A stretch of 64,000 bases of DNA from Oryzomicrobium sp. (GTDB lineage: Bacteria > Pseudomonadota > Gammaproteobacteria > Burkholderiales > Rhodocyclaceae), in NCBI RefSeq assembly GCF_021287045.1, contig NZ_JAJTBG010000015.1:29010-93009 (forward strand), given 5' to 3'. The position numbers and the translations under genes are program-made. The notes below the pieces were generated by a model, which was not told the origin of the DNA, ran no database searches, and saw nothing but the letters and a program-made list of their open reading frames with translations. Of this stretch, positions 44,935 through 63,850 are shown in pieces. Numbering within the stretch: the stretch's first letter is position 1; each line of letters begins with the position of its first letter.

Positions 44935-44998
44935 CGCTTATAAGGATATAAGCGTTCCGATAAGAGCGATCGATCTTACACTGGATTCGTTCCGATAA
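44935..44998. promoter_or_regulatory. LysR-type operator and direct repeats between the regulator and uraH
   Basis: CGCTTATA (44935-44942) and TATAAGCG (44947-44954) form a perfect inverted repeat around AGGA. An 11-base direct repeat CGTTCCGATAA occurs at 44953-44963 and 44988-44998. The set lies in the LysR-uraH divergent spacer. Confidence 0.6.
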
Positions 44999-45020
44999 CT
45001 TCAATACAGAGGAGACAGCC

Positions 45021-45371
45021 ATGGGACGACTGACCACCCATGTTCTCGACACCGCGTCCGGCAAGCCCGGCGCCGGCATCGCCGTGTCCGTGTTCCGCCT
45101 GGACGGCGGGCGCCGCCAGGTGGCCGAGACCGTGACCAACGCCGACGGCCGCTGCGACCGGCCCCTGCTCGAAGGCGAAGCCCTGGAACGGGGCCGCTAC
45201 GAGATCGTCTTTGCCGTGGAGGACTACTTCCGCGCCCAGGGCACGGCCCTGCCCGAGCCGGCCTTTGTCGGCGAGGTGGTGCTGCGCTTCGGCGTGGCCG
45301 AACCCGGCCAGCACTACCACGTGCCCCTCCTGGTGTCCCCCTGGAGCTACTCCACCTACCGCGGCAGCTGA
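45021..45371 (+). CDS. uraH: 5-hydroxyisourate hydrolase
   Basis: A 116-residue transthyretin-related protein. The signatures are LTTHVLDTASGKPG at the N-terminus (catalytic His), HYHVPLLVSPWSYSTYRGS at the C-terminus (the YRGS tetrapeptide). It hydrolyses 5-hydroxyisourate to OHCU. No signal peptide. First gene of the urate operon. Confidence 0.94.
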   Translation: MGRLTTHVLDTASGKPGAGIAVSVFRLDGGRRQVAETVTNADGRCDRPLLEGEALERGRYEIVFAVEDYFRAQGTALPEPAFVGEVVLRFGVAEPGQHYHVPLLVSPWSYSTYRGS

Positions 45372-45414
45372 CCCGGCCCCGTCGCCTTCCTTTTCCGAAC
45401 CGGATTACTGAATC

Positions 45415-46608
45415 ATGGAAGCCTATCTGCTTGACTGGGCCAATCTGCTGCTGCGCTGGCTCCACCTGATCGCGGGCATTGCCTGGATCGGCGCGTCCTT
45501 CTACTTCGTCATGCTCGACAACTCGCTCCGGCCGCCGAAAAAGCCGGAGGACGCCAAGCGCGGCGTCTTCGGCGAGCTGTGGGCGGTGCACGGCGGCGGG
45601 TTCTACTGCAGCCAGAAGTTCCTCACCGGCCCCAAGGGTGAACCCCTCACCGACGACCTGCACTGGTCGAAATGGGAAGCCTACACCACCTGGATGTCCG
45701 GCATGGGCCTGATGGCGGTGATCTATTGGGTCGGCGCCTCCAGCTACCTGATCGACCCGAAGGTGATGGCCCTGGCCCCCGCCACCGCGGTGGGCATCTC
45801 GATCGCCTTCCTGGTGGGGGGCTGGGTGGTCTACGACCTGCTGTGCCGCCTGCTGGTGGGCCGCGACAATCTGCTGGGCGCCCTGGTGTTCGCCTTCGTC
45901 GTCCTGTGCGATTGGCTGCTGCACCAGGTGTTCTCGGCCCGGGGCGCCTACATCCACGTCGGCGCCATGATGGCGACGATGATGGTGGCCAACGTGTTCT
46001 TCCACATCATTCCGGGCCAGAAGCGCATGGTCGAGCAGATCCGCGCCGGCCAGGAGGTGGATACCCGGCCCGGCCTCATCGGCAAGCAGCGCTCGGTGCA
46101 CAACACCTACTTCACCCTGCCGGTGCTGTTCATCATGATCAGCAACCACTACCCGATGACCTACGCCAACGCCAACGGCTGGCTGATCCTGGTGGTGATG
46201 ATGTTGGCCGGCGTGCTCATCCGCCAGTTCTTCGTGCTGCGCCACCGGGGTCAGGTCAAGTGGTGGCTGCCCGCCTCCGGCGTGGCCCTGATCGCCGTAC
46301 TGGCCGCGCTGATGGCGCCCCGTCCCGTCGATGCCGGCGGCGCCCCGGTGGCCTTCAACGCCGTGCATGAGGTGGTGGAGCAGCGCTGCATCGCCTGCCA
46401 CTCGGCCCACCCCAGCCAGCCGGGCTTCGCCCAGCCGCCCAAGGGCGTGACCTTCGACACCTCGGCCCAGATCGGCCAACACGCCGCCAAGATGGCCGAG
46501 ACCGTGGCCAGCGGCTACATGCCCCTGGGCAACCTGACCCACATCACCGACGACGAGCGCAAGCTGATCGCCACCTGGTACGCCCAGGGCGCCAAGCTGG
46601 CCAACTGA
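45415..46608 (+). CDS. puuD: Membrane urate hydroxylase PuuD with cytochrome c domain
   Basis: A 397-residue integral membrane protein with about eight hydrophobic segments in the first 300 residues. A C-terminal cytochrome c-like domain has heme motif Cys325-x-x-Cys328-His329 (CIACHSAH). GIAWIGASFYFVMLDNSL and VHGGGFYCSQKF are PuuD/DUF989 marks. It oxidises urate to 5-hydroxyisourate and passes electrons to the respiratory chain rather than O2. Between uraH and uraD. Confidence 0.93.
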   Translation: MEAYLLDWANLLLRWLHLIAGIAWIGASFYFVMLDNSLRPPKKPEDAKRGVFGELWAVHGGGFYCSQKFLTGPKGEPLTDDLHWSKWEAYTTWMSGMGLMAVIYWVGASSYLIDPKVMALAPATAVGISIAFLVGGWVVYDLLCRLLVGRDNLLGALVFAFVVLCDWLLHQVFSARGAYIHVGAMMATMMVANVFFHIIPGQKRMVEQIRAGQEVDTRPGLIGKQRSVHNTYFTLPVLFIMISNHYPMTYANANGWLILVVMMLAGVLIRQFFVLRHRGQVKWWLPASGVALIAVLAALMAPRPVDAGGAPVAFNAVHEVVEQRCIACHSAHPSQPGFAQPPKGVTFDTSAQIGQHAAKMAETVASGYMPLGNLTHITDDERKLIATWYAQGAKLAN

Positions 46609-46626
46609 GCCGGAAAAGACCCCGAC

Positions 46627-47193
46627 ATGAACAGTCCCCACAACAGCATCCCGGGCGCCGCCGCGGCCCCGTCCTCCCTTGACGCCCTGTCGTCCCTATC
46701 GACCCTATCGTCCCTTTCCCAGGCCGATTTCGCCGCCCGCCTCGGCGACATCTTCGAGCACTCGCCCTGGATTCCCGAGCGGGCCTGGCAGCGCCGCCCC
46801 TTCGCCAGCGTCGACGCCCTGCACGCCGCCATGGTGGCGGCGGTGGACGCCGCCAGCCGGGACGAGCAGCTCGGCCTGATCCAGGCCCACCCGGAACTGG
46901 CCGGCAAGGAAGCCGCCGCCGGCACCCTGACCAGCGCCTCCACCGGCGAGCAGCGCGGCGCCGGCCTGGACCAGTGCAGCGCCGAGGAACTGGCGCGCCT
47001 GCGCCGCCTCAACGCCGCCTACCGGGAGCGCTTCGGCTTTCCCTTCGTCATTGCGGTGAAGGGCCTGTCCCGCTACCAGATCATGGACGCGGTGGAGGCC
47101 CGGCTGAACAACGACGCCGCCACCGAGTTCCGCGCCTGCCTGTCGGAGATCGGCAAGATCGCCCGGTTCCGCCTCGACGCCCTGTTTTCCTGA
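46627..47193 (+). CDS. uraD: OHCU decarboxylase
   Basis: A 188-residue decarboxylase that turns OHCU into S-allantoin. Conserved core: FEHSPWIPERAWQRRPF, LIQAHPELAGKEA (catalytic His), and FPFVIAVKGLSRYQIM. The N-terminal 35 residues include a low-complexity Ser/Leu run (SLDALSSLSTLSSLSQ) encoded by imperfect repeats, absent in most UraD proteins; translation might begin later. Confidence 0.92.
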   Translation: MNSPHNSIPGAAAAPSSLDALSSLSTLSSLSQADFAARLGDIFEHSPWIPERAWQRRPFASVDALHAAMVAAVDAASRDEQLGLIQAHPELAGKEAAAGTLTSASTGEQRGAGLDQCSAEELARLRRLNAAYRERFGFPFVIAVKGLSRYQIMDAVEARLNNDAATEFRACLSEIGKIARFRLDALFS

Positions 47194-47214
47194 ATCCGCC
47201 GCAAGGAGCGCCAG

Positions 47215-48150
47215 ATGCCCCTCGATCCCTCCTACCCCCGCGACCTGGTCGGCTACGGCCGTAATCCGCCCCACGCCGCCTGGCCGGGCAACGCCCGGGT
47301 GGCGGTGCAGTTCGTCCTCAACTACGAGGAGGGCGGCGAGAACTGCGTGCTGCACGGCGATGCCGGGTCCGAGCAGTTCCTCTCGGAACTGTTCAACCCG
47401 GCCAGCTACCCGGCCCGCCACCTGTCCATGGAGTCGGTCTACGAGTACGGCTCCCGGGTCGGGGTGTGGCGCTTCCTGCGCGAGTTCGAGCGGCGCGGCC
47501 TGCCCATGACCGTCTTCGGCGTGGCCATGGCCCTGGAGCGCCACCCGGAGGCCACCGCCGCCTTCCGCGAACTGGGCCACGAGATCGCCTGCCACGGCTG
47601 GCGCTGGATTCATTACCAGGGGGTCGATGAGGCGACCGAGCGCGAACACATGCGCATCGGCATGGAAATCATCGAGCGACTCACCGGCGAGCGCCCCCTC
47701 GGCTGGTACACCGGCCGCGACTCGCCGAACACCCGCCGCCTGGTGGCCGACTACGGCGGCTTTCTCTACGACTCGGACTACTACGGCGACGACCTGCCGT
47801 TCTGGACCGAGGTGCAAAAGAGCGACGGGAGCACGGCGCCCCACCTGGTGGTGCCATACACCCTCGACACCAACGACATGCGTTTTTCCCTCCCCCAGGG
47901 GTTTTCCCACGGGGATGAGTTCTTCGAATACCTGCGCGACGCCTTCGACCTGATGTACGCCGAGGGCGAGGAGCGCCCGGCCATGATGAGCGTCGGCATG
48001 CACTGCCGGCTGCTCGGCCGCCCGGGACGCTTCAAGGCGCTGCAACGCTTCCTCGACCACATCGAGAAGCACGACCGGGTCTGGGTGTGCCGGCGCGTCG
48101 ATATCGCCCGCCACTGGATCCGGCACCACCCCTACCTCCCGAAGGCCTAA
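47215..48150 (+). CDS. puuE: Allantoinase PuuE
   Basis: A 311-residue protein of the NodB/polysaccharide-deacetylase fold, PuuE subgroup. It starts [19 protein letters not shown] and carries [13 protein letters not shown], the [17 protein letters not shown] block, and [16 protein letters not shown]. It opens allantoin to allantoate and is unrelated to AllB-type allantoinases. 21 bases after uraD. Confidence 0.92.
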
Positions 48151-48170
48151 GACACAACAAGGAGACCACC

Positions 48171-49214
48171 ATGGCCAGCCACACCTCCGGCCCCACCGTC
48201 ATCGCCCCTCCCGCCGACCTGCCCGACTGGGCCCGCCGCTCGGTGGACCTGGCGAACCCGCGCCTGGGCGCCAAGGCCCTCCATGCGTCCGACGATTTCT
48301 TCGCCGAAGTCGCGCGCATGCTCAACCCCGAACCGGCCCAGTTCGTGCCGGGCAAGTTCGACACCAACGGCAAGTGGATGGACGGCTGGGAATCCCGCCG
48401 CAAGCGCGTCGCCGGCCACGACTGGGCCCTGGTCAAGCTCGGGGTGAAGGGCCGCATCCGCGGCTTCGACGTGGATACCAGCCACTTCGTCGGCAACTAC
48501 CCCCCGGCGGTGTCCATCGAGGCCACCGTCTCCGACAGCGACGCGGTGGATGCCCTCCAGGGCGCCGCCTGGACCGAAATCCTGCCCGCCACCCCCCTGG
48601 GGCCGAGCAGCCACCACCTGCTCGAAATCGCCAACGACGGCGTGTGGACCCACCTGCGGGTGAACATCTACCCCGACGGCGGCATCGCCCGCCTGCGCGT
48701 CTACGGCCAGCCCGTGGGCGGCCTGGAAGGCGCCGGCCCGGATCAGCTGGTGGACCTGGTGGCCCTGGAGAACGGCGGCCGCCCCGTGTCCTGGAACGAC
48801 GCCAGCTTCGGCTCCTCGGCCACCAGCCTGCTGCTGCCGGGTCGGGGCGTGAACATGGGTGACGGCTGGGAGACCCGCCGCCGCCGCGAGCCCGGCAACG
48901 ACTGGTGCGTGCTGGAACTGGGCGCCCCGGGGATCATCGAGAAGGTCGAGGTGGATACCGCCTTCTTCAAGGGCAACTACCCGGACCGCTGCTCGATTCA
49001 GGCGGCCTACGTGCAGGGCGGCACCGACCAGTCGGCCACCACCCAGAGCATGTTCTGGCCGGTGCTGTTGCCGGAACAGAAGCTGTCCATGGACGCGGTG
49101 CACACCTTCGCCGAGCAGCTCGCCGCCCTGGGGCCGGTGACCCACGTGCGCTTCAACATCTTCCCCGACGGCGGCGTCTCGCGCCTGCGCCTGTGGGGCA
49201 AGGTGGCCAAGTAA
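48171..49214 (+). CDS. alc: Allantoicase
   Basis: A 347-residue protein built of two related beta-sandwich halves, visible as repeated [11 protein letters not shown] / [11 protein letters not shown] and [15 protein letters not shown] / [14 protein letters not shown] motifs. It hydrolyses allantoate to ureidoglycolate and urea. ATG at 48171 follows AAGGAGACCACC. Located between puuE and allA. Confidence 0.95.
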
Positions 49215-49230
49215 TCGAGGAGCCTCTGCC

Positions 49231-49731
49231 ATGACGACGATCACCCTGGTGCCCGAACCGCTGACCCGGGAAGGCTTCGCCCCCTTCGGCGACGTCATCG
49301 AAGCCAGCGACGCGGTGCGCCACTTCACCATCAACGCCGGCAACACCGAGCGCTACCACGACCTGGCCGCCGTCGAGCCCGGGCCCGACGGGCGGGTGAT
49401 CGTCTCGATCTTCCGCGGCCAGCCCCGCCAGCTCCCCTTCAAGGTGGAGATGATGGAGCGCCACCCCCTGGGCAGCCAGGCCTTCGTCCCCATGGCCGAC
49501 TGGTCCTACCTGGTAGTGGTGGCCCCGGCCGGGGAATCCCCCCGGGTGGAGGACCTGCGGGTCTTTCTCGCCCGGGGCGACCAGGGGGTGAACTACGCCC
49601 CCGGGGTCTGGCACCACCCCCTGCTGGCCCTCGATGCGGTGTCCGATTTCCTGGTCATCGACCGCGGCGGCCCGGGGAACAACTGCGACGAAGTCAGCCT
49701 CGAAACTCCCGGGTGGATTCCCGCCCCCTAG
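49231..49731 (+). CDS. allA: Ureidoglycolate lyase
   Basis: A 166-residue cupin-like protein. EGFAPFGDVIEASD, FKVEMMERHPLGSQAFVPM and PGVWHHPLLAL match AllA. It cleaves ureidoglycolate to glyoxylate and urea, linking to the gcl genes downstream. 16 bases after alc. Confidence 0.94.
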   Translation: MTTITLVPEPLTREGFAPFGDVIEASDAVRHFTINAGNTERYHDLAAVEPGPDGRVIVSIFRGQPRQLPFKVEMMERHPLGSQAFVPMADWSYLVVVAPAGESPRVEDLRVFLARGDQGVNYAPGVWHHPLLALDAVSDFLVIDRGGPGNNCDEVSLETPGWIPAP

Positions 49732-49741
49732 GAGAAACGCC

Positions 49742-50542
49742 ATGGATGACGCGGCCCGCCCGGACGACGGCACGGCCCCGGCCTACGCCGCCCGCCCGGC
49801 CCACATCGGCGAGGCCGAATGGCGGGCCCGGGTGGATTTGGCGGCCTGCTACCGCCTGGCCGGCCGGCATGGCTGGGACGACCTGATCTATACCCACGTC
49901 TCCCTGCGCCTGCCGGGGCGGGGCGACGCCTTTCTGATCAATCCCTTCGGCCTGGCCTTCGCCGAGATCAGCGCCTCCAACCTGCTGGTGGTGGATACCC
50001 GTGGGCAGGTGATCGACGGCAGCGGCCGCCGCGCCAACCCCAGCGGCTTCGCCATCCACGGGGCGGTGCACCGGGCCCGGGCCGACGCCCATTGCGTCAT
50101 CCACCTGCACACCACCGCCGGCATCGCCGTCTCGGCCCTGGCCGAGGGGCTGCTGCCCCTGTCCCAGCACGCGTTGCGCTTCTGGCACGACATCGCCTAC
50201 CACGACTACCAGGGCCTGGCCCTGGGGGCCCAGGAGCAGGCGCAACTGGTGGCGGAACTGGGCGGCCACCGAGCCATGATCCTGCGCAACCACGGCACCC
50301 TGACCTGCGGCCGCACTGTGGCCGAGGCCTACGTGCTGATGCACACCCTGGAGAAGGCTTGCGCCATCCAGCTGGCGGCCCTGGCCGCCGCCCACGGCGG
50401 AGGGGGCCTGCATGTGCCGCCCGCCGAGGTGCTCGAACGCAGCCACGCCCAGCTCACCGCCGACAGCGAGCCCGAGGGTGCCCTGGAGTGGCCGGCCCTG
50501 CTGCGTGGCTTGCTGCGGGAAGCCCCGGGCTTTGCCCGCTGA
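49742..50542 (+). CDS. Class II aldolase/adducin family protein
   Basis: A 266-residue protein of the class II aldolase family (fuculose aldolase-like zinc site): THVSLRLPG, SGFAIHGAVHRARADAHCVIHLHTTAG with paired His ligands (HLHT), and HRAMILRNHGTLTCG with a third His. It is embedded between allA and a tautomerase gene, but no step of the known pathway needs it. It might act on ureidoglycolate, hydroxypyruvate or tartronate-type compounds (inference). ATG at 49742 follows GGAGAAACGC. Confidence 0.84.
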   Translation: MDDAARPDDGTAPAYAARPAHIGEAEWRARVDLAACYRLAGRHGWDDLIYTHVSLRLPGRGDAFLINPFGLAFAEISASNLLVVDTRGQVIDGSGRRANPSGFAIHGAVHRARADAHCVIHLHTTAGIAVSALAEGLLPLSQHALRFWHDIAYHDYQGLALGAQEQAQLVAELGGHRAMILRNHGTLTCGRTVAEAYVLMHTLEKACAIQLAALAAAHGGGGLHVPPAEVLERSHAQLTADSEPEGALEWPALLRGLLREAPGFAR

Positions 50543-50598: not shown

Positions 50599-50790
50599 AT
50601 GCCCACGTTGCACATCGAACTCTTCGAGGGGCGCAGCCCCGAGCAAAAACGCGAACTGGTGAGCGCCCTGACCCGGGAGACCTGCCGGGTCCTGGGCTGC
50701 GACCCCGGGGCGGTGGACATCGTGCTGATCGACGTGCGCCGCGACAACTGGGCCACCGGCGGCGTGCTGTGGTCCGATCGGCCGGCCTGA
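50599..50790 (+). CDS. 4-oxalocrotonate tautomerase-like protein
   Basis: A 63-residue protein with Pro after the start Met (MPTLHIELFEGRSPEQKREL), the catalytic proline of the tautomerase superfamily, and VDIVLIDVRRDNWATGG with conserved Arg. Small hexameric isomerases of this type shuttle enol/keto forms. Follows the class II aldolase gene by 56 bases and may work with it (inference). Confidence 0.85.
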   Translation: MPTLHIELFEGRSPEQKRELVSALTRETCRVLGCDPGAVDIVLIDVRRDNWATGGVLWSDRPA

Positions 50791-51125
50791 TTTCCCGCAG
50801 GGGAGGGCGGGGCGGCCGAGCGGGGCGCCCGCCGCATTTTCCCCTGGCATCGGGGCGGCCCTGCCGGCGCCGCCCGTCCTTGTTTTTTCCCGCTTTTTCC
50901 GCTTCTACCTCCCTTGTTCCCGCGTCCTGTCCGCACGGCGTTGCCGCCGCGGCAGGCGCGGGCTTTTTTTGTCCGTGAAAACAGGGGGCTAGGACTATAT
51001 GAATTTCCTTATGTGACGTATCAGGGCTACCCCGTTTCGGCGCGGCAGCCGATCCCTAAACTAGGTTTGCAGTCAACGACGTCCGCAGAGACGCATCAAC
51101 TCATAACTACTGGATGGAGACAACG
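50791..51125 (+). other. Leader region of the permease gene
   Basis: A 335-base spacer without a gene. The second half (from about 50980) is AT-richer and contains the candidate regulatory RNA described separately. Confidence 0.5.
50981..51090 (+). promoter_or_regulatory. Candidate purine-sensing leader RNA (xanthine/urate riboswitch-like)
   Basis: An AT-rich block (50990-51030) includes ATATGAATTTCC and CTTATGTGACGTATCAGG and is followed by a stable stem (CAGGGCT near 51022 with AGCCGATCCCT near 51047-51057). Position just upstream of an NCS2 purine permease is where the NMT1/xanthine riboswitch class is known to occur in proteobacteria. Class membership is an inference; I could not test a covariance model. 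Confidence 0.35.
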
Positions 51126-52538
51126 ATGTCCAACTGTGTCACGGAAACCGTTCCGCAACAGCCGGATGCGGTCGACGAGCGCCTGCCCGCCGGCCGCCTG
51201 GCCACGCTGGGATTGCAGCATGTGATGGTGATGTACGCGGGGGCGGTGGCCGTGCCCCTGATCATCGGGGCCGCCCTCAAGATGCCCAAGGAGCAGATCA
51301 CCCTGCTGATCAACGCCGACCTGCTGTGCAGCGGTCTGATCACCCTGATCCAATCCCTCGGCGCCGGCATGTTCGGCATCCGCCTGCCGGTGATGATGGG
51401 GGTGACCTTCGCCGCGGTGACGCCGATGATCGTCATCGGCACCGACCCCAGCCTGGGCATTACCGGCATTTTCGGCGCCAGCATCGTCGCCGGCCTGTTC
51501 AGCATCCTCATCGCCCCGATGTTCAGCCGGCTGATGGGGCTGTTTCCGCCGGTGGTCACCGGCACCATCATCACCGTCATCGGCGTTTCCCTGATGCGGG
51601 TCGGGGTCAACTGGGTCGGCGGCGGCCAGCCCATGATCAAGAATCCGGCCACCGGCCTGATGGTGCCCAACCCCAGCTACGGCTCCCCGGAGAACCTGGG
51701 CATCGCCCTGCTGGTGCTGGTGGTGATCCTGCTCATCTCCAAGTACGGCAAGGGCTTCGTCGCCAACGTGGCCGTACTGGTGGGCCTGGTGGTGGGCTTC
51801 TTCGTCTCCCTGGGGATGGGCCGCATCAATTTCTCGGGCCTTGACCAGGCCAGCTGGTTCGCCGTGATCACCCCCTTCGAGTTCGGCATGCCCACCTTCG
51901 ACCTGGGGGCCTCCACCGTGCTCTGCCTGATCATGATGGTGGTGATGGTCGAATCCCTGGGCATGTTCCTGGCGATCGGCGAGATCACCGGGCGCAAGCT
52001 GACCCGGGAGGACCTGGTGCGGGGGCTGCGCACCGACGGCCTGGGCACCCTGGTGGGGGGCATCCTCAACACTTTCCCCCATACCTCCTTCTCCCAGAAC
52101 GTGGGCCTGGTCAGCGTCACCGGCGTCAAGAGCCGCTGGGTGTGCGTGGTGGGGGGCGCCATGCTGATCGCCCTGGGCCTCTTCCCCAAGATGGCCTTCG
52201 TGGTGGCCTCGGTGCCCCAGTACGTGCTGGGCGGCGCCGGGATCGTGATGTTCGGCATGGTCGCTTCCACCGGCATCAAGATTCTCATGTCGGCCAACCT
52301 GGGCAGCAACCGCTATAACTCCTACATCGTCGCCATCAGCCTGGGCTTTGGCATGATCCCCGTGGTGGCCGACCACCTCTTCGAACAGATGCCCAAGGCC
52401 CTGGCGCCCCTGCTCCATAGCGGCATCCTGCTCGCCGCCCTCTCGGCGGTGCTGCTCAACCTGTTCTTCAACGGCACCGGCCGCAAGCAGGCCGACTGCA
52501 TCGGCGAAGTCGGCGCCCACCAGGCGACCGCCCACTAA
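51126..52538 (+). CDS. Purine (xanthine/urate) permease, NCS2/NAT family
   Basis: A 470-residue nucleobase:cation symporter-2 with about 12-14 hydrophobic segments. It carries the TM1 QH motif (LGLQHVMVMYAG) and the NAT signature QNVGLVSVTGVKSR. Within the urate operon, it most likely imports urate or xanthine (inference from context). ATG at 51126 is preceded by GGAG; the upstream ATG at 51114 has a worse site. Confidence 0.88.
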   Translation: MSNCVTETVPQQPDAVDERLPAGRLATLGLQHVMVMYAGAVAVPLIIGAALKMPKEQITLLINADLLCSGLITLIQSLGAGMFGIRLPVMMGVTFAAVTPMIVIGTDPSLGITGIFGASIVAGLFSILIAPMFSRLMGLFPPVVTGTIITVIGVSLMRVGVNWVGGGQPMIKNPATGLMVPNPSYGSPENLGIALLVLVVILLISKYGKGFVANVAVLVGLVVGFFVSLGMGRINFSGLDQASWFAVITPFEFGMPTFDLGASTVLCLIMMVVMVESLGMFLAIGEITGRKLTREDLVRGLRTDGLGTLVGGILNTFPHTSFSQNVGLVSVTGVKSRWVCVVGGAMLIALGLFPKMAFVVASVPQYVLGGAGIVMFGMVASTGIKILMSANLGSNRYNSYIVAISLGFGMIPVVADHLFEQMPKALAPLLHSGILLAALSAVLLNLFFNGTGRKQADCIGEVGAHQATAH

Positions 52539-52695: not shown

Positions 52696-53568
52696 ATGAA
52701 AACCACCTCCGCCGCCACTGTTTTCGCCCTGTCCGCCGCCGGCCTGGCCCTGTCCGCCGCCACCGCCCAGGCCCAGAGCTGGAGCGACACCTACATCGGC
52801 TATCGCTACGGCACCGCCTTCACCGAGCCGACCAACCGCAACGACATCACCAAGAACGTCATCCAGTTCACCCACGCCAGCGGCTATTCCCTGGGGCAGA
52901 ACTTCTTCAACCTGGACATCCTCAAGTCCGACAGCAAGGACCCGGCCAACGGCGGCTCCAGCGGCGCCACCGAGTTCTACGCCACCTACCGCCACCTGCT
53001 GTCCTTCGGCAAGGTGCTCGACAAGAACCTGTCCTTCGGCCCGGTGAAAGACGTGGGCTTCACCGCCGGCTTCGACCTCAATTCCAAGAACACCGCCTTC
53101 GCCCCGCAAAAGCGCCTGCTGGTGGCCGGCCCCACCCTGCGCTTCGACGTGCCCGGCTACCTGGACGTGAGCGTGCTGGCGGCCCGGGAATGGAACCACT
53201 GCGGCCTGGGTGCCCCGGCCTGTCCCAAGAGCGACATCGTCTTCGATCCCCAGCTGATGCTTAGCGCCGCCTGGGGCATCCCCTTCCAGGCCGGCCCGCT
53301 GCCCCTCAAGTTCCAGGGCTTCATCAACTACCTGACCGCCAAGGGCCGGGACTACGCCAACGTGGAAACCAAGCCCGAGACCCTGATGCGTACCTCCCTG
53401 ATGGTGGACGTGGGCCAGCTGACCGGCGGCAAGAAGAACACCTTCCTGATGGGGGTGGGCTACGAGCTGTGGCGCAACAAGTTCGGCAACCACGCTTACG
53501 CCAACGGCGTCACCAAGCCGGGCATCGACACCAATGCCCCGACCTTCCAGGCCGAGTGGCACTTCTGA
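52696..53568 (+). CDS. Outer-membrane nucleoside-channel (Tsx/OmpK-like) porin
   Basis: A 290-residue protein. Signal peptide ends near ATAQAQ|SWSDTYIG. SDTYIGYRYGTAFTEPTNRNDITKNV-type segments, then beta-strand-rich GATEFYATYRHLLS and a terminal aromatic (EWHF) indicate a Tsx-type beta barrel. It could provide outer-membrane passage for purines. ATG at 52696 begins the signal sequence. Confidence 0.82.
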   Translation: MKTTSAATVFALSAAGLALSAATAQAQSWSDTYIGYRYGTAFTEPTNRNDITKNVIQFTHASGYSLGQNFFNLDILKSDSKDPANGGSSGATEFYATYRHLLSFGKVLDKNLSFGPVKDVGFTAGFDLNSKNTAFAPQKRLLVAGPTLRFDVPGYLDVSVLAAREWNHCGLGAPACPKSDIVFDPQLMLSAAWGIPFQAGPLPLKFQGFINYLTAKGRDYANVETKPETLMRTSLMVDVGQLTGGKKNTFLMGVGYELWRNKFGNHAYANGVTKPGIDTNAPTFQAEWHF

Positions 53569-54967: not shown

Positions 54968-55489
54968 ATGTACCAGGGCCTCGTGCTGCTCTACGTGGGG
55001 GCCGTGCTGATCCTCAACGGGCTGTGGATGCTGGGCCGCATCGACGACCGGGAGATCGGGGCGATCAACGTGCTCGTTGGCGGGGTCAGCCTGGCGGTGG
55101 CCCTGCGCCTGGCCTTCGGCCCCGACGCCGACCCGGCCTCGGTGAAGGCGGCGGCCCTCTCGCTGCTGTTCGCCTTCACCTACCTGTGGGTGGCCTACAA
55201 CCGCTACAGCGGCGCCGACGGCCGGGGCCTGGGCTGGTTCAGCCTGTTCGTGGCCCTCACCGCCGTGGCGGTGGCGGCCGAGACCCTGGCGGGCGCCGCC
55301 ACGCCGTGGCAGCTCTGGTCGGGCCTTTCCTGGGCGGCCTGGGCCGTCCTGTGGTGGGTGTTCTTCCTGGTGCTCGCCCGGGGCCGGCCCCTGGCCCGTA
55401 CGGCGGCCTGGCTGGCCATTGCCGAGGGGGTGACCACCGGCTGGATACCGGGCTACCTGCTTCTCACCGGCGCCATTCCCCAGCCATGA
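54968..55489 (+). CDS. AmiS/UreI family urea/amide channel
   Basis: A 173-residue membrane protein with six hydrophobic segments: LVLLYVGAVLILNGLWMLG, INVLVGGVSLAVALRLAF, AAALSLLFAFTYLWVAYN and EGVTTGWIPGYLLLTGAIP. This is the AmiS/UreI pattern. Urea is released twice in this pathway (Alc and AllA), so it may move urea across the membrane (inference). It lies 8 bases after eno. Confidence 0.85.
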   Translation: MYQGLVLLYVGAVLILNGLWMLGRIDDREIGAINVLVGGVSLAVALRLAFGPDADPASVKAAALSLLFAFTYLWVAYNRYSGADGRGLGWFSLFVALTAVAVAAETLAGAATPWQLWSGLSWAAWAVLWWVFFLVLARGRPLARTAAWLAIAEGVTTGWIPGYLLLTGAIPQP

Positions 55490-55521: not shown

Positions 55522-56436
55522 CTAGCCCCGTTCCCCTTCCCAGTAGCCGGGGGAGTTGTAGATGCCCTTCAGGTAGTCGATGAAGTGGCGCACCTTGGCC
55601 GGCAGGTAGCGTTGCTGCGGATAGACGGCCTGGATCGGGTAGCCGGGCACGGCGAACTCGTCGAGCACCGTCACCAGCTCGCCGCGCTTCAGTTCGGCCT
55701 GGATCTCCCAGGTGGAGCGCCAGCCGATGCCCAGGCCCTGCTTGACCCAGTTGAACAGCAATTCCCCGTCGTTGCAGGCCAGGTCGCCGTCCACCCGCAC
55801 GGCGATCAACCGGCCGTCCCGGGCGAAGCTCCAGCCGCGCTGCTGCCCCCCTTGCAGGTTGAAGGCCAGGCAGTTGTGCCCGGCCAGGTCGTCCGGGGTG
55901 CGGGGCACGCCGTGGCGGGCGAAATAGGCCGGGGTGCCGCACACCACCCGGCGGTTGGGGAAGAGAGGCACCGCCACGTAGTTCGGGTCGGTCACCTCGC
56001 CGATGCGGATGGCCATGTCGTAGCCCTCGCGCACCAGGTCCACCACGCTGTCGGTGAAGTTGAAGGACAGTTTGAGGGCCTCGTAGCGCGCCTTGAAGGC
56101 GGGGGCGTGGGGCGCCACGTGGCGCCGCCCGAAGGCCGCCGGAGCCGACACCACCAGATGGCCGCGCACCACGTCGCGGCCGGCGCTGATGCTGCTCTCG
56201 GCGGCGTCGAAGTCGCGCAGCAATTGACGGCACTGGTCGAGGAACTGCTCCCCCAGGGCGGTGAGGGTCAGGCCCCGGGTGGAACGATGCATCAGCCGCA
56301 CCCCCAGGCGAGCCTCCAGGGCGTCCAGGCGGCGCCCCATCACCACCGGGGTGACGTTCTCCGCCAGGGCGGCGGCGGCGAAGCTGCCCTTTTCGGCCAC
56401 CAGGGCGAAGCTGCGGATTTCGGTATAGCGGTCCAT
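55522..56436 (-). CDS. LysR-family regulator of the glyoxylate genes
   Basis: A 304-residue LysR protein. Helix-turn-helix VAEKGSFAAAALAENVTPVVMGRRLDALEARLGVRL; effector domain begins near HLVVSAPAAFG. It is divergent from gcl, so likely controls the gcl-hyi-glxR-kinase operon in response to a glyoxylate or glycerate signal. ATG at 56436 follows GGAG; the frame remains open to 56553 across the promoter. Confidence 0.88.
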   Translation of the reverse strand: MDRYTEIRSFALVAEKGSFAAAALAENVTPVVMGRRLDALEARLGVRLMHRSTRGLTLTALGEQFLDQCRQLLRDFDAAESSISAGRDVVRGHLVVSAPAAFGRRHVAPHAPAFKARYEALKLSFNFTDSVVDLVREGYDMAIRIGEVTDPNYVAVPLFPNRRVVCGTPAYFARHGVPRTPDDLAGHNCLAFNLQGGQQRGWSFARDGRLIAVRVDGDLACNDGELLFNWVKQGLGIGWRSTWEIQAELKRGELVTVLDEFAVPGYPIQAVYPQQRYLPAKVRHFIDYLKGIYNSPGYWEGERG

Positions 56437-56452
56437 TCGGTACTCCAAGTAT

Positions 56453-56470
56453 CTACAGAAGCAATGGTAG
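56453..56470. promoter_or_regulatory. Candidate LysR site between the regulator and gcl
   Basis: CTAC (56453-56456) and GTAG (56467-56470) form an inverted repeat around 10 bases, with the T...A ends typical of LysR boxes. The match is short. Confidence 0.3.
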
Positions 56471-56546
56471 CAGCAATTCAACAGCCCGCCCGTTCTCTTT
56501 ATTCTGGTCCCATCGACCTGATTAACGCATGGCAATGGAGAAGACA

Positions 56547-58315
<1,769 letters not shown>

Positions 58316-58322
<7 letters not shown>

Positions 58323-58342
58323 CCCGACTGACCCGACTGACC
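58316..58342 (+). repeat. Three 9-base tandem repeats spanning the gcl stop
   Basis: CGACTGACC occurs three times in a row (58316-58342). The unit preserves the frame, so the gcl stop TGA is followed by two further in-frame TGA codons. Confidence 0.9.
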
Positions 58343-58367
58343 CCGGCCTCACCAGGAGACACCAGAG

Positions 58368-59156
58368 ATGCCCAAGTTCGCCGCCAACCTGACCATGCTG
58401 TTCAATGAGGTGCCCTTCCTCGACCGCTTCCAGGCCGCCGCCCAGGCCGGATTCAAGGGGGTCGAGTACCTCTTCCCCTACGACTTCGCCAAGGAGGAAC
58501 TGGCCGAGCGGCTGGCGCGCCACGGCCTGGTCCAGGTGCTGCACAACCTGCCGGCCGGCGACTGGGCCGGCGGCGAGCGGGGCATCGCCTGCCTGCCCGA
58601 GCGGGTCGGCGAGTTCCAGGACGGGGTGGGGCGCGCCATCGAGTACGCCCGGGCCCTGGGCTGCGCCCAGGTCAATTGCCTGGCCGGCATCGTCCCCGCC
58701 GGGGGCTGCCAGAACACGGCGCGCCGCACTTTCGTGGACAACCTGCGCTTTGCCGCCGGCCAGCTCAAGGAGGCGGGCATCCGCCTCCTGATCGAGCCGA
58801 TCAACACCTACGACATCCCGGGCTTCTTCCTCAGCCGCACCGACCAGGCCCTGGCCATCATCGACGAGGTGGGCTCGGACAACCTGTTCCTCCAGTACGA
58901 CATCTACCACGCCCAGCGCATGGAGGGCGAACTGGCCAACACCATCGCCCGCCACCTGCCGCGCATCGCCCACATCCAGCTCGCCGACAACCCGGGCCGC
59001 CACGAGCCGGGCAGCGGCGAGATCAACTACCCCTGGCTGTTCCGCCACATCGACGGCCTGGGCTACGCCGGCTGGATCGGCTGCGAGTACAAGCCCGCCG
59101 CCGGCACCCGCGAGGGCCTGGGCTGGATCGCCGCCCTGACCGGCCAGGCCGGCTGA
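58368..59156 (+). CDS. hyi: Hydroxypyruvate isomerase
   Basis: A 262-residue TIM-barrel protein of the AP-endonuclease-2 family. NLTMLFNEVPFLDRFQAAAQAGFKGVEYLFPYDF, LIEPINTYDIPGFFLSRTDQAL and QYDIYHAQRMEGELA match Hyi. It interconverts hydroxypyruvate and tartronate semialdehyde. 45 bases after gcl. Confidence 0.94.
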   Translation: MPKFAANLTMLFNEVPFLDRFQAAAQAGFKGVEYLFPYDFAKEELAERLARHGLVQVLHNLPAGDWAGGERGIACLPERVGEFQDGVGRAIEYARALGCAQVNCLAGIVPAGGCQNTARRTFVDNLRFAAGQLKEAGIRLLIEPINTYDIPGFFLSRTDQALAIIDEVGSDNLFLQYDIYHAQRMEGELANTIARHLPRIAHIQLADNPGRHEPGSGEINYPWLFRHIDGLGYAGWIGCEYKPAAGTREGLGWIAALTGQAG

Positions 59157-59198
59157 ACGGCGCACGGCACCATTCATCACACCGAAGGAGACAACGAC

Positions 59199-60089
59199 AT
59201 GGCAAAAATCGGCTTCATCGGCCTCGGCATCATGGGCGCCCCCATGGCCGGCCACCTCATCGGCGGCGGCCACGCCGTCTTCACCTACACCCACGGCGAG
59301 ACGCCCCAATTCCTCCTCGACCAGGGCGCCCAGCCCTGCGCCAGTGGCGCCGAGGTGGCGCGCAACGCCGAGGTGATCATCACCATGGTGCCCGACACCC
59401 CCCATGTGGAGGACGCCCTGTTCAACCCCACCGGGGTCGCCGCCGGCCTGGCGCCGGGCAAGATCGTGGTGGACATGAGCTCCATCTCCCCGGTGGCCAC
59501 CAAGGACTTCGCCAAGCGCATCAACGCCCTGGGCTGCGACTACCTGGACGCCCCGGTGTCCGGCGGCGAGGTGGGGGCCAAGGCCGCCTCCCTGACCATC
59601 ATGGTGGGCGGTCCGGAAGCCGCCTTCGCCAAGGTCAAGCCCCTGTTCGAGCTGATGGGCAAGAACATCACCCTGGTGGGGGGCAACGGCGACGGCCAGA
59701 TCACCAAGGTGGCCAACCAGATCATCGTCGCCCTGACTATCGAGGCGGTGGGCGAGGCCCTGCTGCTCGCCGCCAAGGCCGGCGCCGACCCGGCCAAGGT
59801 GCGCCAGGCCCTGATGGGGGGCTTCGCCAACTCGCGCATCCTCGAAGTGCACGGCGAGCGCATGGTCAAGCGCACCTTCGATCCGGGCTTCCGCATCGAG
59901 CTGCACCAGAAGGACCTCAACCTGGCCCTGACCACCGGCCGCCAACTGGGCGTCTCCCTGCCCAACACGGCCACCGCCCAGGAGCTGTTCAACGCCTGCG
60001 CCGCCCACGGCGGCTCGGCCTGGGACCACTCCGCCATGGTCCGGGCCCTGGAGAAGATGGCCAACTTCGAGATCGGCAGCGGGCGCTAG
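59199..60089 (+). CDS. glxR: Tartronate semialdehyde reductase
   Basis: A 296-residue beta-hydroxyacid dehydrogenase with the Rossmann motif GFIGLGIMGAPMAGHL, substrate loop DAPVSGGEVGAKAASLTIMVGG, and catalytic Lys in KVANQIIVALTIEA. It reduces tartronate semialdehyde to glycerate. ATG at 59199 follows GAAGGAG. Confidence 0.93.
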   Translation: MAKIGFIGLGIMGAPMAGHLIGGGHAVFTYTHGETPQFLLDQGAQPCASGAEVARNAEVIITMVPDTPHVEDALFNPTGVAAGLAPGKIVVDMSSISPVATKDFAKRINALGCDYLDAPVSGGEVGAKAASLTIMVGGPEAAFAKVKPLFELMGKNITLVGGNGDGQITKVANQIIVALTIEAVGEALLLAAKAGADPAKVRQALMGGFANSRILEVHGERMVKRTFDPGFRIELHQKDLNLALTTGRQLGVSLPNTATAQELFNACAAHGGSAWDHSAMVRALEKMANFEIGSGR

Positions 60090-60220
60090 GCCCCGCCGCC
60101 AGGGCGGTTCCGGCGCCGCCGCGCGCCGCGCCGGGACCGCTTCACCGTTTGCCATCGCCCACGAGCCCGCCGGCCGGGACGCCGTCGCAGCCCGGTCCGG
60201 CCCCCATTCCGAGGACCCCC

Positions 60221-60643
60221 ATGCGTCATCTCGCCATCGATGTCGGCACCCACCGTTTCATCGCCCGCCTGGAAGAAGAGGCCGCCCCGCGCACCTGCGC
60301 CGCCTTCCTGGAGATGCTGCCCTTTTCCAACCAGGCCATCCATTCCCGCTGGAGCGGCGAAGCGGTCTGGGTGCCCCTGGGCGACTTCCAGACCGGCCTG
60401 GACTACGAGAACCACACCAGCCACCCCTCCCGGGGCGACGTGCTGCTCCACCCTGGCGGCCTGTCGGAAACCGAGATCCTGTTCGCCTACGGCAGCAGCC
60501 GCTTCGCCAGCAAGGTGGGCCAGCTCGCCGGCAACCACTTCCTGACGGTGGTGGAAGGCGCCGACAAGCTCATGGACATGGGCCGCACCGTGCTGTGGAA
60601 GGGGGCCCAGTGGATTCGCTTCACCGACCTGGGCGAGCGCTGA
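60221..60643 (+). CDS. DUF3830 family protein (cyclophilin-like fold)
   Basis: A 140-residue protein. HRFIARLEEEAAPRTCAAFLEMLPF and SRWSGEAVWVPLGDF resemble DUF3830, a cyclophilin-like domain often found with amidase, allantoin or aldolase genes. Function unknown. Between glxR and the glycerate kinase; it may act on an intermediate or a small ligand here. Confidence 0.8.
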   Translation: MRHLAIDVGTHRFIARLEEEAAPRTCAAFLEMLPFSNQAIHSRWSGEAVWVPLGDFQTGLDYENHTSHPSRGDVLLHPGGLSETEILFAYGSSRFASKVGQLAGNHFLTVVEGADKLMDMGRTVLWKGAQWIRFTDLGER

Positions 60644-60680
60644 GGCCCGGGCCAGCACAACGACAGAACGGGATACGACC

Positions 60681-61961
60681 ATGACCTCCGCTCCCCTTGC
60701 ATCCCTGGCGCCCCGCGAACTGCTCGGCCGCATGTTCGCCGCCGCGGTGAACGCGGCCCAGCCCGAGCATTGCATTCCCCCCCACCTGCCCGAGCCGCCC
60801 CGGGGCCGCACCCTGGTGATCGGCGCCGGCAAGGCCTCGGCGGCCATGGCCCAGGCCCTGGAGCGGCACTGGCCCGGCCCCCTGTCGGGCCTGGTGGTGA
60901 CCCGCTACGGTTACGCCGTGCCCTGCGAGCGCATCGAGATCGTCGAGGCCGCCCATCCGGTGCCCGACGCCGCCGGCCAGGCCGCCGCCGCGCGCCTGCT
61001 GGAGCTGGTGCGGGGCCTGAGCGCCGACGACCTGGTGATCTGCCTCGTTTCCGGCGGCGGCTCGGCCCTGCTGCCCCTGCCCGGCGACGGGGTGACCCTG
61101 GCGGACAAGCAGGCCATCAACCGGGCCCTGCTGGCCTCCGGCGCCACCATCGCCGAAATGAACTGCGTGCGCCGCCACCTGTCCGCCATCAAGGGCGGGC
61201 GCCTGGCCGCCGCCTGCCACCCGGCCCGGGTGGTGAACCTGCTCATTTCCGACGTTCCGGGGGACAACCCGATGGACATCGCTTCCGGCCCCACCGTGGC
61301 CGACCCCACCACCTGTGCCGACGCCCTGGAAATCGTGCGCCGCTACGGCATCGAACTGCCCGAGGGCGCTCGCCGCCTGCTCGAAAGCGGCGCTGGCGAG
61401 ACGGTCAAGCCCGGCGATCCGCGCCTGGCCGGCGTCACCACCCGCCTGGTGGCCACGCCCCAGATGGCCCTGGAAGCCGCCGCCGCCGTGGCCCGGGACG
61501 CCGGGGTGACGCCCCTGGTGCTGGGCGACAGCATCGAGGGCGAGGCCCGGGACGTGGGCAAGGTCCTGGCCGGCATCGCCCTCCAGGTGCGCCGCCACGG
61601 CCAGCCGCTGCCGGCGCCCTGTGTGTTGCTGTCCGGCGGCGAGACCACGGTGACGGTGCGCGGCCGGGGCAGGGGAGGGCGCAACGTCGAATTCCTGCTC
61701 GCCCTGGCGGTGGCCCTGGACGGCGCGCCGGGCATCCACGCCGTGGCCGGGGATACGGACGGGGTGGACGGGCAGGAGGAAATCGCCGGTGCCTTCGCCA
61801 CCCCCTGCACCCTGAAGCGGGCCTGGGAACGGGGCATCCGCCCCCGGGACCGGCTCGACGACAACGACGGCCACGGCTTCTTCGAGGCCCTGGGGGATTC
61901 CCTGGTGACCGGCCCGACCCTGACCAACGTCAACGATTTCCGCGCCATCCTGATCACCTGA
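60681..61961 (+). CDS. ttuD: Glycerate 2-kinase (MOFRL family)
   Basis: A 426-residue kinase: N-terminal glycerate kinase domain (VIGAGKASAAMAQALE, LVICLVSGGGSALLPLP, HLSAIKGGRLAAAC, LISDVPGD) and C-terminal MOFRL domain with LSGGETTVTVRGRGRGGRNVEF. It makes 2-phosphoglycerate, which feeds the nearby enolase directly. Confidence 0.92.
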   Translation: MTSAPLASLAPRELLGRMFAAAVNAAQPEHCIPPHLPEPPRGRTLVIGAGKASAAMAQALERHWPGPLSGLVVTRYGYAVPCERIEIVEAAHPVPDAAGQAAAARLLELVRGLSADDLVICLVSGGGSALLPLPGDGVTLADKQAINRALLASGATIAEMNCVRRHLSAIKGGRLAAACHPARVVNLLISDVPGDNPMDIASGPTVADPTTCADALEIVRRYGIELPEGARRLLESGAGETVKPGDPRLAGVTTRLVATPQMALEAAAAVARDAGVTPLVLGDSIEGEARDVGKVLAGIALQVRRHGQPLPAPCVLLSGGETTVTVRGRGRGGRNVEFLLALAVALDGAPGIHAVAGDTDGVDGQEEIAGAFATPCTLKRAWERGIRPRDRLDDNDGHGFFEALGDSLVTGPTLTNVNDFRAILIT

Positions 61962-62009
61962 ACACCAGGGGCGCCGGGACCACCGCGAGAGCGAAAGAGG
62001 AGACAGCAA

Positions 62010-62420
62010 ATGAAAACGATCAAGGCCCTGACCCTGGACGACGCCCGGCGCATCGCCGCCGCCGCCGAAAGCGAAGCCCTGGCCAACGGCTGGGCGGTGA
62101 GCATCGCCGTGTGCGACGGCGGCGGCCACGCCCTGTGGTTGCAGCGCATGGACGGCGCCCCCCCGATGAGCGCCGTCGTGGCCCCGGAAAAAGCCCGCAC
62201 CTGCATCATGAGCGGCAAGCCCAGCAAGGCGTACGAGGACATGGTCAACAATGGCCGCTTCGCCGCCCTGGCCATGCCGGTGGTGCCCCTGGAAGGGGGC
62301 GAGCCGATCGTGGCCGGCGGCGCCATCGTCGGTGCCGTGGGCGTCTCCGGCGTCAAGGCCGGGGAAGACGCCCAGGTGGCCCGGGCCGGGGTCGCCGCCC
62401 TGGCGGGAGAATGCGCATGA
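62010..62420 (+). CDS. HbpS/GlcG-family heme-binding-like protein
   Basis: A 136-residue protein of the GlcG/HbpS (DUF336) family: ALTLDDARRIAAAAESEALANGWAVSIAVCDGGGHALWLQRMDGAP, and VVPLEGGEPIVAGGAIVGAVGVSG. GlcG-type genes recur in glycolate/glyoxylate operons. No signal peptide. Its stop overlaps the pyruvate kinase start (ATGA). Confidence 0.88.
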   Translation: MKTIKALTLDDARRIAAAAESEALANGWAVSIAVCDGGGHALWLQRMDGAPPMSAVVAPEKARTCIMSGKPSKAYEDMVNNGRFAALAMPVVPLEGGEPIVAGGAIVGAVGVSGVKAGEDAQVARAGVAALAGECA

Positions 62421-63850
62421 GACGCCATCGCCGCTCGCGCATCCTCGCCACCCTGGGGCCGGCCAGTTCCAGCCGGGAGCGCATCCGCGCCCTGGTGGAC
62501 GCCGGGGCCGACGTCTTCCGCCTCAACTTCAGCCACGGCAGCCACGCCGACCATGCCGAACGCTACCGCCTGATCCGCGACGTGGAACGGGACGTGGGGC
62601 GCCCCATCGGCGTGCTGATGGACTTGCAGGGGCCCAAGCTGCGGGTCGGCCGTTTCGCCGGGGGCAAGGCCGTCCTGGCGACCGGAGCCGCCTTCCGCCT
62701 CGACCTGGACCCGGCCGAGGGGGACGCCGGCCGGGTCTGCCTGCCCCACAAGGAAATCTTCGCCGCCCTGGAAGCCGGTACCGAGCTGTTGCTCGACGAC
62801 GGCAAGCTGCGCCTGCGGGTGGAGCGCTTCGGCCCGGACCACGCCGAGACCACGGTGCTGGTGGGGGGAGTGCTGTCCGACCGCAAGGGTGTGAACGTGC
62901 CGGGCGTGGTGCTGCCCATCTCGCCCCTGACCGAAAAGGACCGGGACGACCTGGCCTTCGGCCTGGAGCTGGGGGTGGACTGGGTGGCCCTGTCCTTCGT
63001 GCAGCGCCCCGAGGACATCGCCGAGGCCCGCCGCCTGGTGGGCGAGCGGGCCTGGATCATGGCCAAGCTGGAAAAGCCCTCGGCCATCGAGCACCTGGAC
63101 GAGATCGTCGCCCGGGCCGACGGGATCATGGTCGCCCGGGGCGACCTGGGGGTGGAGCTGCCGCCCCAGCGGGTGCCGGTGCTGCAACGGCGCATCGTCG
63201 AGGCGGCCCGGGCCGCCGGCAAGCCGGTGGTGGTGGCTACCCAGATGCTCGAATCCATGATCACCGCCCCGGTGCCCACCCGGGCCGAGGCCTCGGATGT
63301 GGCCACGGCCATCTACGAAGGGGCCGACGCCGTGATGCTCTCGGCCGAATCCGCCTCGGGCCAGTACCCGGTGGAGGCGGTGGGCATCATGGACCGCATC
63401 ATCGCCGAGGTGGAGCAGGACCCGGCCTGGCGCATCGGCCTGGAGGCCAGCCACACCCCGGCCGCCGCCACCACGCCGGACGCCATCTGCTGCGCCCTGC
63501 GGCGCATCGCCGGGCTGCTCGCCCCGGCGGCCACCGTGGCCTACACCGTCAGCGGCTTCAGCTGCCTGCGGGCCAGCCGCGAGCGGCCCGCCACGCCGAT
63601 CCTGGCCCTCACCCCCAAGCTGGCGGTGGCCCGCCGGCTGGCCCTGGTCTGGGGCGTCCATCCGGTGCCCTTCGAAGAGGCCGCCAACCTCGAGGCCATG
63701 GTGGACGACGCCGCCGCCGCCGCCGTGCGTTTCGGCCTGGCCGGCCCGGGCGACGACCTGGTGGTGATCGCCGGCCTGCCCTCGGGACGGGCCGGCAGCA
63801 CCAACCTGCTGCACGTGCTGCGCATTCCCGACGCCCCGCCGGCGCGCTAG
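62417..63850 (+). CDS. pyk: Pyruvate kinase (pathway paralogue)
   Basis: A 477-residue pyruvate kinase. RRSRILATLGPASSSRERIR, FRLNFSHGSHADH, MDLQGPKLRVG, IMVARGDLGVELPP and VATQMLESMI then PTRAEASDVA are the standard motifs. Converts PEP to pyruvate with ATP formation. Starting ATG overlaps the HbpS-like stop, so it is part of the glyoxylate operon. This positioning suggests a dedicated copy. Confidence 0.93.
   Translation: MRRHRRSRILATLGPASSSRERIRALVDAGADVFRLNFSHGSHADHAERYRLIRDVERDVGRPIGVLMDLQGPKLRVGRFAGGKAVLATGAAFRLDLDPAEGDAGRVCLPHKEIFAALEAGTELLLDDGKLRLRVERFGPDHAETTVLVGGVLSDRKGVNVPGVVLPISPLTEKDRDDLAFGLELGVDWVALSFVQRPEDIAEARRLVGERAWIMAKLEKPSAIEHLDEIVARADGIMVARGDLGVELPPQRVPVLQRRIVEAARAAGKPVVVATQMLESMITAPVPTRAEASDVATAIYEGADAVMLSAESASGQYPVEAVGIMDRIIAEVEQDPAWRIGLEASHTPAAATTPDAICCALRRIAGLLAPAATVAYTVSGFSCLRASRERPATPILALTPKLAVARRLALVWGVHPVPFEEAANLEAMVDDAAAAAVRFGLAGPGDDLVVIAGLPSGRAGSTNLLHVLRIPDAPPAR

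Follow-up and report, generated by a model that had tools for sequence, protein, structure and literature searches.

A second enolase in a urate-to-pyruvate gene region of Oryzomicrobium sp., and its probable dedication to purine-carbon assimilation

Why would a bacterium keep a second enolase gene among its genes for purine breakdown? The question is raised by a 64,000-nucleotide stretch of DNA from Oryzomicrobium sp. (Rhodocyclaceae; contig NZ_JAJTBG010000015.1, positions 29,010 to 93,009), which is referred to here as the window (G000:C25:29010-93009 in our numbering; its right edge is the contig end). An original prediction, made from the letters alone, had placed a complete urate-to-pyruvate gene set with its own enolase (Eno) and pyruvate kinase (Pyk) at positions 44935 to 63850. 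All of the enzymes that it named were found on the forward strand with no internal stop; the end of the span was exact, and its start preceded the first gene by 86 bases. The part from 45021 to 63850 contains 19 intact forward-strand genes and one LysR-type gene on the reverse strand (Table 1). We consider it quite likely that the region is a purine-carbon assimilation cluster with a pathway-dedicated enolase that would drain 2-phosphoglycerate to phosphoenolpyruvate (PEP).

Exactly two enolases and exactly two pyruvate kinases of the window's genome exceed the Pfam cut-offs. The idea that the window holds the only copies was thereby ruled out: the other enolase is on G000:C15 and the other pyruvate kinase on G000:C4, near a BluB gene. 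The C15 copy was taken as the ordinary enolase because of its setting, pyrG-kdsA-eno-ftsB. The window's Eno is 63% identical to it and retains 119 of 123 near-invariant enolase columns; in an alignment with the solved enolase 3tqp, it is identical at the Glu, Lys, His and metal-ligand residues that we take to be catalytic or metal-binding. Judged by its sequence, it is a real enolase paralogue and a predicted 2-phosphoglycerate dehydratase.

Both domains of a class II glycerate kinase, DUF4147 and MOFRL, exceed their Pfam cut-offs in the neighbouring kinase. The protein falls below the cut-offs of both NCBIfam glycerate 2-kinase models (220 of 550 and 161 of 670 bits), but these models are apparently archaeal by name, and failing them does not decide the activity. 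Class II glycerate kinases are tabulated as makers of 2-phosphoglycerate (PMC2063504; papers are cited by PMC number throughout), and by analogy the window's kinase is expected to form this product. Pyk is 43% identical to the other pyruvate kinase of the genome. Its best match in the PDB was 7oo1 (571 bits), with 6qxl at 311 bits; these entries are P. aeruginosa PykF and PykA, respectively (PMC8637920). On this comparison Pyk is of the PykF type, resembling P. aeruginosa PykF more than PykA.

In the proposed route, urate would be imported, oxidised and cleaved to glyoxylate and urea, the latter passing through the AmiS/UreI channel. Two glyoxylates would be converted to D-glycerate by Gcl, Hyi and GlxR, D-glycerate to 2-phosphoglycerate by the class II kinase, and 2-phosphoglycerate through PEP to pyruvate by the cluster enolase and the PykF-type pyruvate kinase. 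Because the class II kinase feeds in at 2-phosphoglycerate, the enolase step would carry all of the carbon going to PEP. The enolase would be made when glyoxylate or purine carbon arrives, raising the capacity from 2-phosphoglycerate to PEP without raising the housekeeping gene. The earlier claim that urate carbon would thereby escape housekeeping glycolytic control was too broad. The cluster eno and pyk are likely to be independent in their expression; an escape from allosteric control lacks support, because Pseudomonas PykF is itself allosterically regulated (PMC8637920). The claim is further weakened by a pykA pykF double mutant that still grew on allantoin, albeit more slowly (PMC12694930).

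Another reading is that the enolase has drifted to another job (moonlighting, structural, or acting on a changed substrate). Two features point to accelerated change: the clade of the window's Eno has a long stem (0.86 changes per column in a quick tree, 0.59 in a careful one), and at 14 positions the eight clade members compared all have a residue that no more than 5 of 102 enolases outside the clade possess. Such drift is nevertheless very improbable in our view, given that the presumed active-site residues are kept relative to 3tqp, that the enolase equivalog model gives the protein 608 bits, and that the neighbouring kinase is expected to make exactly the substrate of an enolase.

The run of gcl, hyi, glxR, class II glycerate kinase and pyk has the content of a Pseudomonas-type gcl cluster. 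The E. coli allantoin regulon is not known to contain eno or pyk. As in the window, the glyoxylate formed from allantoin goes to glycerate, which a glycerate kinase then takes up; the E. coli kinase differs in being of class I (PMC2063504). The P. aeruginosa cluster PA1498-PA1502 (pykF-glxK-glxR-hyi-gcl) shares with the window gcl, hyi, glxR, a TM1585-type glycerate kinase and a PykF-type pyk near purine genes; the window adds the enolase, AmiS/UreI, DUF3830 and HbpS, plus a LysR gene in between. PA1498-PA1502 is induced by allantoin, and transposon mutants in it fail on this substrate (PMC12694930). The same five enzymes are found in the gcl clusters of P. fluorescens (PFL1594-1598) and P. 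putida, and a class II kinase and pyk are organised together also in M. extorquens and A. vitis (PMC2063504). A pyk within gcl clusters is already known (for Pseudomonas from PMC12694930, PMC8637920 and PMC2063504) and is not the unusual element. The word "enolase" does not occur in the main texts of PMC12694930 and PMC8637920; in the excerpts on P. umsongensis GO16, Eno appears only as an abbreviation in pathway figure legends (PMC13357446). No description of an enolase in such a gcl/purine cluster was recognised in the accessible portions of the open-licence literature.

The frequency of the arrangement was gauged in 94 gcl loci besides that of the window: 36 from 399 genomes of the order, one of G010, 13 further loci of the family, 40 from 398 genomes of the phylum, and four first chosen by their enolase. 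A Gcl identity of at least 60% was required, and stretches of about 9 kb on each side were taken; 17 stretches had less than 5 kb and 26 less than 8 kb on a side, so absences hold only for the stretches covered. The tables of neighbouring genes dropped tblastn matches below 35% of the query (30% or 40% in single tables), and the later ones also dropped LysR matches below 40% identity. An enolase was present in 4 of the 94 loci, all four in the window's family (three were also recovered by the gcl search of the family), whereas 29 had a pyk of the PykF type, with an identity of 55% or more to that of the window. The predicted unusualness thus held for the enolase and failed for the pyruvate kinase. 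The glycerate kinase occurred in 46 of the loci, and at least one urate or allantoin gene in 22. Three gcl clusters of genus g201 (L136, L137, L140) have DUF3830, HbpS and pyk, and no class II glycerate kinase was found between them.

Searches by the enolase itself gave 18 copies of the window's clade in 16 of 314 family genomes, that of the window included. At E 1e-176, one of 398 phylum genomes carried it, namely the window's own; this sample holds few family members. In the best 80 loci of named genome contigs, a scan that may miss the window's own and very near genomes and says little on absence, the enolases were at most 65% identical (best segment) and none had a Gcl in its stretch. The best plasmid enolase among 15 listed of 1120 matching records was about 63% identical to that of the window. 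The 18-sequence clade is seen here in one family only.

Members of this clade stand in two settings. The first is the gcl cluster, in ten genomes (G000, G476, G484, G557, G442, G954, G1060, G964, G982, G1037) of six genera (g1, g45, g191, g202, g218, g201); five of these enolases were fetched later, having been found by enolase, and lie outside the 94 loci. The second is an Entner-Doudoroff locus, with eight copies. It is complete (edd, eda, an aldose-epimerase-like gene, pyk, an aldehyde dehydrogenase gene, eno and the PEP carboxylase gene ppc) in G476, G578, G554, G1049 and G963 (L092, L093, L094, L221, L222) and lacks pyk in G1013 (L219). Two loci are partial (L215, L223): in G954 eno is accompanied by the dehydrogenase gene, a pyk and an edd in divergent orientation, and G1012 has only eno and ppc on the contig end fetched. 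Both settings occur together in G476 and G954. The Entner-Doudoroff locus thus shares the enolase clade of the window, mostly also beside a pyruvate kinase, but belongs to a sugar-acid route, and its pyk is 57-60% identical to that of the window. Its aldehyde dehydrogenase is possibly GapN. The locus is a further example of a pathway operon that includes dedicated copies of eno and pyk. The same layout was seen in L030 (MAG SZAS-76, of another lineage), with an enolase outside the clade. No phosphogluconate dehydratase of the window's genome was over the cut-off (one match fell below it).

In the careful tree, all 18 enolases fall in one clade (support 100/100), inside which the Entner-Doudoroff copies are nested (96/100); deeper splits within the clade are weak (80/91) or open. 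The other members are 76-81% identical to the window's Eno. In the trees, the housekeeping enolase of the window's genome falls in a betaproteobacterial group with Comamonas, Alcaligenes and Thiomonas. An origin of the paralogue in a distant lineage had been suggested by the quick tree and was dropped, since neither of two approximately unbiased (AU) tests excludes a grouping with the family's own enolase: holding the paralogue and the family housekeeping enolases together was better by 61 log-likelihood units than the quick 110-row tree (p 0.9) and worse by 23 than the careful 59-row tree (p 0.156). Rows with internal stops, less than 80% length or identical sequences were removed from the trees; of the rows named ref, 22 entered the careful tree, which omits L165 and L172, and the 59-row test additionally left out L077 and L083. 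In another family genome, G020, two near-identical ordinary enolase matches (C1:1434563 and 1430782; L162, L163) start about 3.8 kb apart, the second without the first 30 query residues. We tentatively suggest, as a possibility short of a probability, a distinct "glycerate-route" enolase lineage in one betaproteobacterial family, specialised in draining the 2-phosphoglycerate that a kinase supplies directly and placed under the gcl switch in several genera. It would later have been borrowed into an Entner-Doudoroff operon, since the copies there nest inside the gcl-linked ones.

The notion of a gcl switch derives from a 43-base ungapped sequence with an inverted ATAC-N4-GTAT core, noticed before gcl when upstream regions were inspected by eye. 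The same sequence was seen before eno in three genomes (G557, G442, G476). A matrix was made from five gcl sites only, that of the window among them, and the three eno sites seen beforehand were kept out of it. Over 3.38 Mb of fetched DNA, 24 sites scored at least 18. Eighteen lie before gcl (five being the seeds) and three before eno (G557, 50.4; G442, 45.1; G476, 36.9); three were left unassigned by the script. One of these, L101:9312, falls between the gene of the LysR-type regulator beside gcl (LysRg) and a gcl truncated by the contig end; L148:64-106 is a weaker gcl-type site (28.0) in G476, flanked by the Tsx-like gene and an AmiS gene that does not adjoin eno; and the L204 site (18.6) is at chance level. 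In ten block-shuffles of the 3.38 Mb, which preserve base composition in blocks of 300 and not dinucleotides, eight had no match at 18 and two had one and two, the best at 22.4. Loci fetched later added eno sites in G954 (52.0), G1060 (24.7) and G982 (24.7). The last two are barely above the best chance score, but both lie about 96 bases before eno; chance-level matches of 15.7 and 16.3 occurred elsewhere in these loci.

The operator therefore precedes eno in 6 of the 10 genomes with a gcl-linked enolase, or 6 of 9 relatives of the window, and the synteny comparison proposed with the original prediction found the cluster kept and this putative operator common to gcl and eno. In G476 and G954, eno and gcl point the same way, away from LysRg, each with a site. 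The 217 bases before eno in G964, all that were available, contain no site. The eight Entner-Doudoroff loci have no gcl-type operator (three at threshold 10, five at 15). In G484 the start of eno overlaps the stop of the Tsx-like gene (by eye), an arrangement that shows a second mode of linkage. The window's genome has a single site at up to three mismatches, the one before gcl. Since the enolase is kept with gcl in several genera and has the gcl operator in 6 of 10, it is expected to be co-expressed with the pathway. The added enolase appears new and, in several genera, appears to have been re-wired to the gcl-type operator.

These data bear on the possibility that the extra enolase is a dosage or expression backup, a chance neighbour serving general glycolysis or gluconeogenesis. 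Its clade is found in eight Entner-Doudoroff loci, so it is not tied to purines alone, and most gcl clusters lack it. The linkage to gcl or purine genes in six genera and the operator in front of eno would, however, not be expected by chance, and the enolase accompanies pathway genes in both settings. We regard a mere backup as improbable.

LysRg is the presumed binder of the 43-base site, as judged by its place beside it in five genomes (the window's, G476, G954, G557 and G442). In G964 it shares a contig with the gcl site, at a distance of about 5 kb. In genus g191 the gcl operator is strong (L090, 67.9; L218, 64.9; L220, 57.6), and LysRg was not found in the stretches fetched. The rule that LysRg always lies beside the gcl operator was rejected; its placement differs or the gene was not found in several loci. 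Because LysRg is not always near the site, its role as the binder is something that we infer.

Several observations weigh against a dedicated enolase under pathway control. The stretches of 15 of 19 gcl-bearing family genomes have no cluster enolase (gcl was found in 19 of 199; some stretches are cut by contig ends), the four with it being G000, G442, G476 and G484; 13 of the 15 gave no clade enolase anywhere. The cluster enolase is therefore not required. The genus mate G001 has no true gcl. No operator was found before eno in G484, G1037 or the window; for the last, the best score in 50800-53700 was -4.4. LysRg occupies the far end of the cluster in G1060 and was not found in the fetched stretches of G484, G982 and G1037 or in L138 and L139, all of which have a gcl site. 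An operon cannot be taken for granted, with 157 bases ahead of the Tsx-like gene and 107 ahead of eno; the search for promoter-like sites gave none, and five terminator-like sites (2.0 expected) are not tellingly placed. In an anaerobe using Gcl for dichloroacetate, enolase was without significant change (PMC8092247), and the Pseudomonas papers give the route without a cluster enolase. The window's eno most likely rides on the permease/Tsx-like transcript together with AmiS, as read from the gene arrangement.

A further possibility, compatible with a dedicated enolase, concerns the source of the carbon: the gcl-eno-pyk half might mainly handle other glyoxylate (from ethylene glycol, glycolate or oxalate), with the purine genes merely adjacent. 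Each half has a LysR gene of its own, and LysRg lies between the two. In P. umsongensis GO16, as in the window, a LysR gene lies 5' of gcl; this gene, ttdR, activates ethylene glycol use and is needed for growth on it (PMC13357446). Against this, G484 has the urate genes next to the gcl half with their order unchanged, these genes are on the same stretch in G476, G442, G982 and G1037, and allantoin induces the P. aeruginosa gcl cluster (PMC12694930). A main role in other glyoxylate is judged rather unlikely.

Table 1. Positions of the genes and the putative operator in the window, with the basis for each name
Feature	Position	Strand	Basis
LysRp, LysR-type regulator, divergent from urate genes	43881..44864	-	Pfam HTH_1 + LysR_substrate
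UraH, 5-hydroxyisourate hydrolase	45021..45371	+	Pfam Transthyretin, 126.6 bits
PuuD, membrane urate oxidase, cytochrome-c-like tail	45415..46608	+	Pfam Urate_ox_N, 439.6 bits
UraD, OHCU decarboxylase	46627..47193	+	TIGR03164, 223 bits (cut-off 96)
PuuE, allantoinase	47215..48150	+	TIGR03212, 514 bits (cut-off 425)
Alc, allantoicase	48171..49214	+	TIGR02961, 452 bits (cut-off 278), scored on the longer frame 48087-49214; start at 48171 is ATG
AllA, ureidoglycolate lyase	49231..49731	+	NF009932, 221 bits (cut-off 160)
Class II aldolase/adducin family protein	49742..50542	+	Pfam Aldolase_II; NF005451, 336 bits (cut-off 207)
Small tautomerase-family protein	50599..50790	+	Pfam Tautomerase
Xanthine/urate permease, NCS2 family	51114..52538	+	TIGR03173, 524 bits (cut-off 414)
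Tsx-like outer-membrane protein	52696..53568	+	Name from look and position
Eno, second enolase of the genome	53676..54959	+	TIGR01060, 608 bits (cut-off 300)
AmiS/UreI urea/amide channel	54968..55489	+	Pfam AmiS_UreI, 199 bits; 8 bases 3' of eno
LysRg, LysR-type regulator, divergent from gcl	55522..56436	-	Pfam HTH_1 + LysR_substrate
Putative 43-bp operator 5' of gcl	56438..56480	+	Like sites before gcl in family members
Gcl, glyoxylate carboligase	56529..58322	+	TIGR01504, 1198 bits (cut-off 711)
Hyi, hydroxypyruvate isomerase	58368..59156	+	TIGR03234, 396 bits (cut-off 353)
GlxR, tartronate semialdehyde reductase	59199..60089	+	TIGR01505, 399 bits (cut-off 341)
DUF3830 protein	60221..60643	+	Pfam DUF3830, 144 bits
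Glycerate kinase, class II (DUF4147/MOFRL)	60681..61961	+	Pfam DUF4147, 302 bits; MOFRL, 124.5 bits
HbpS/GlcG-like protein	62010..62420	+	Pfam HbpS-like, 119 bits
Pyk, PykF-type second pyruvate kinase	62417..63850	+	Pfam PK + PK_C

The genes named in the original prediction are all in Table 1; LysRg, the aldolase, the tautomerase, DUF3830, the HbpS/GlcG-like protein and LysRp were missing from its list. From uraH to the tautomerase gene the gaps are 10 to 56 bases, and from gcl to pyk they are 45, 42, 131, 37, 48 and -4 bases, with DUF3830 and HbpS interspersed and pyk overlapping the HbpS/GlcG-like gene by 4 bases. A gap of 323 bases precedes the permease gene, and AmiS and gcl are 1039 bases apart, with LysRg in between. 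Given these gap sizes, the region probably forms several transcription units rather than one. A CxxCH motif was spotted by eye in the tail of PuuD, where a Pfam cytochrome match falls below its cut-off. The Tsx-like protein, whose name is that of the original prediction, had no match in Pfam or NCBIfam; its gene stands between the permease gene and eno also in L090, L216 and L220. Hyi is also above the cut-off of NF043033, 2-oxo-tetronate isomerase (400 bits against 325).

Some neighbouring genes recur in other loci. The aldolase and tautomerase genes (49742-50790) lie 3' of allA also in L090, L135, L216 and L225. DUF3830 is found between glxR and the glycerate kinase (or HbpS) gene in L089, L090, L095, L135, L136, L137, L140, L214, L216, L218 and L220. 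A counterpart of LysRp is divergent from uraH in L148, L149, L150, L225 and L226. Allantoicase and ureidoglycolate lyase are duplicated within the purine region in G442 (L095 and L150), G476 (L148) and G982 (L218 and L225).

Bacteria are commonly assumed to have a single, housekeeping enolase gene. The region adds to the published account of allantoin and pykF the step that links glycerate kinase to pyruvate kinase. A pathway-linked enolase that is kept, and in several genera has the pathway's own control sequence, offers a clean test of why central enzymes duplicate, whether for capacity at the 2-phosphoglycerate step or to avoid conflict with gluconeogenic control. It may also serve the engineering of ethylene glycol and glycolate assimilation, which use the same gcl route. 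If the suggested glycerate-route lineage is true, it would mean that a textbook single-copy glycolytic enzyme has been split into pathway-specific isozymes in bacteria.

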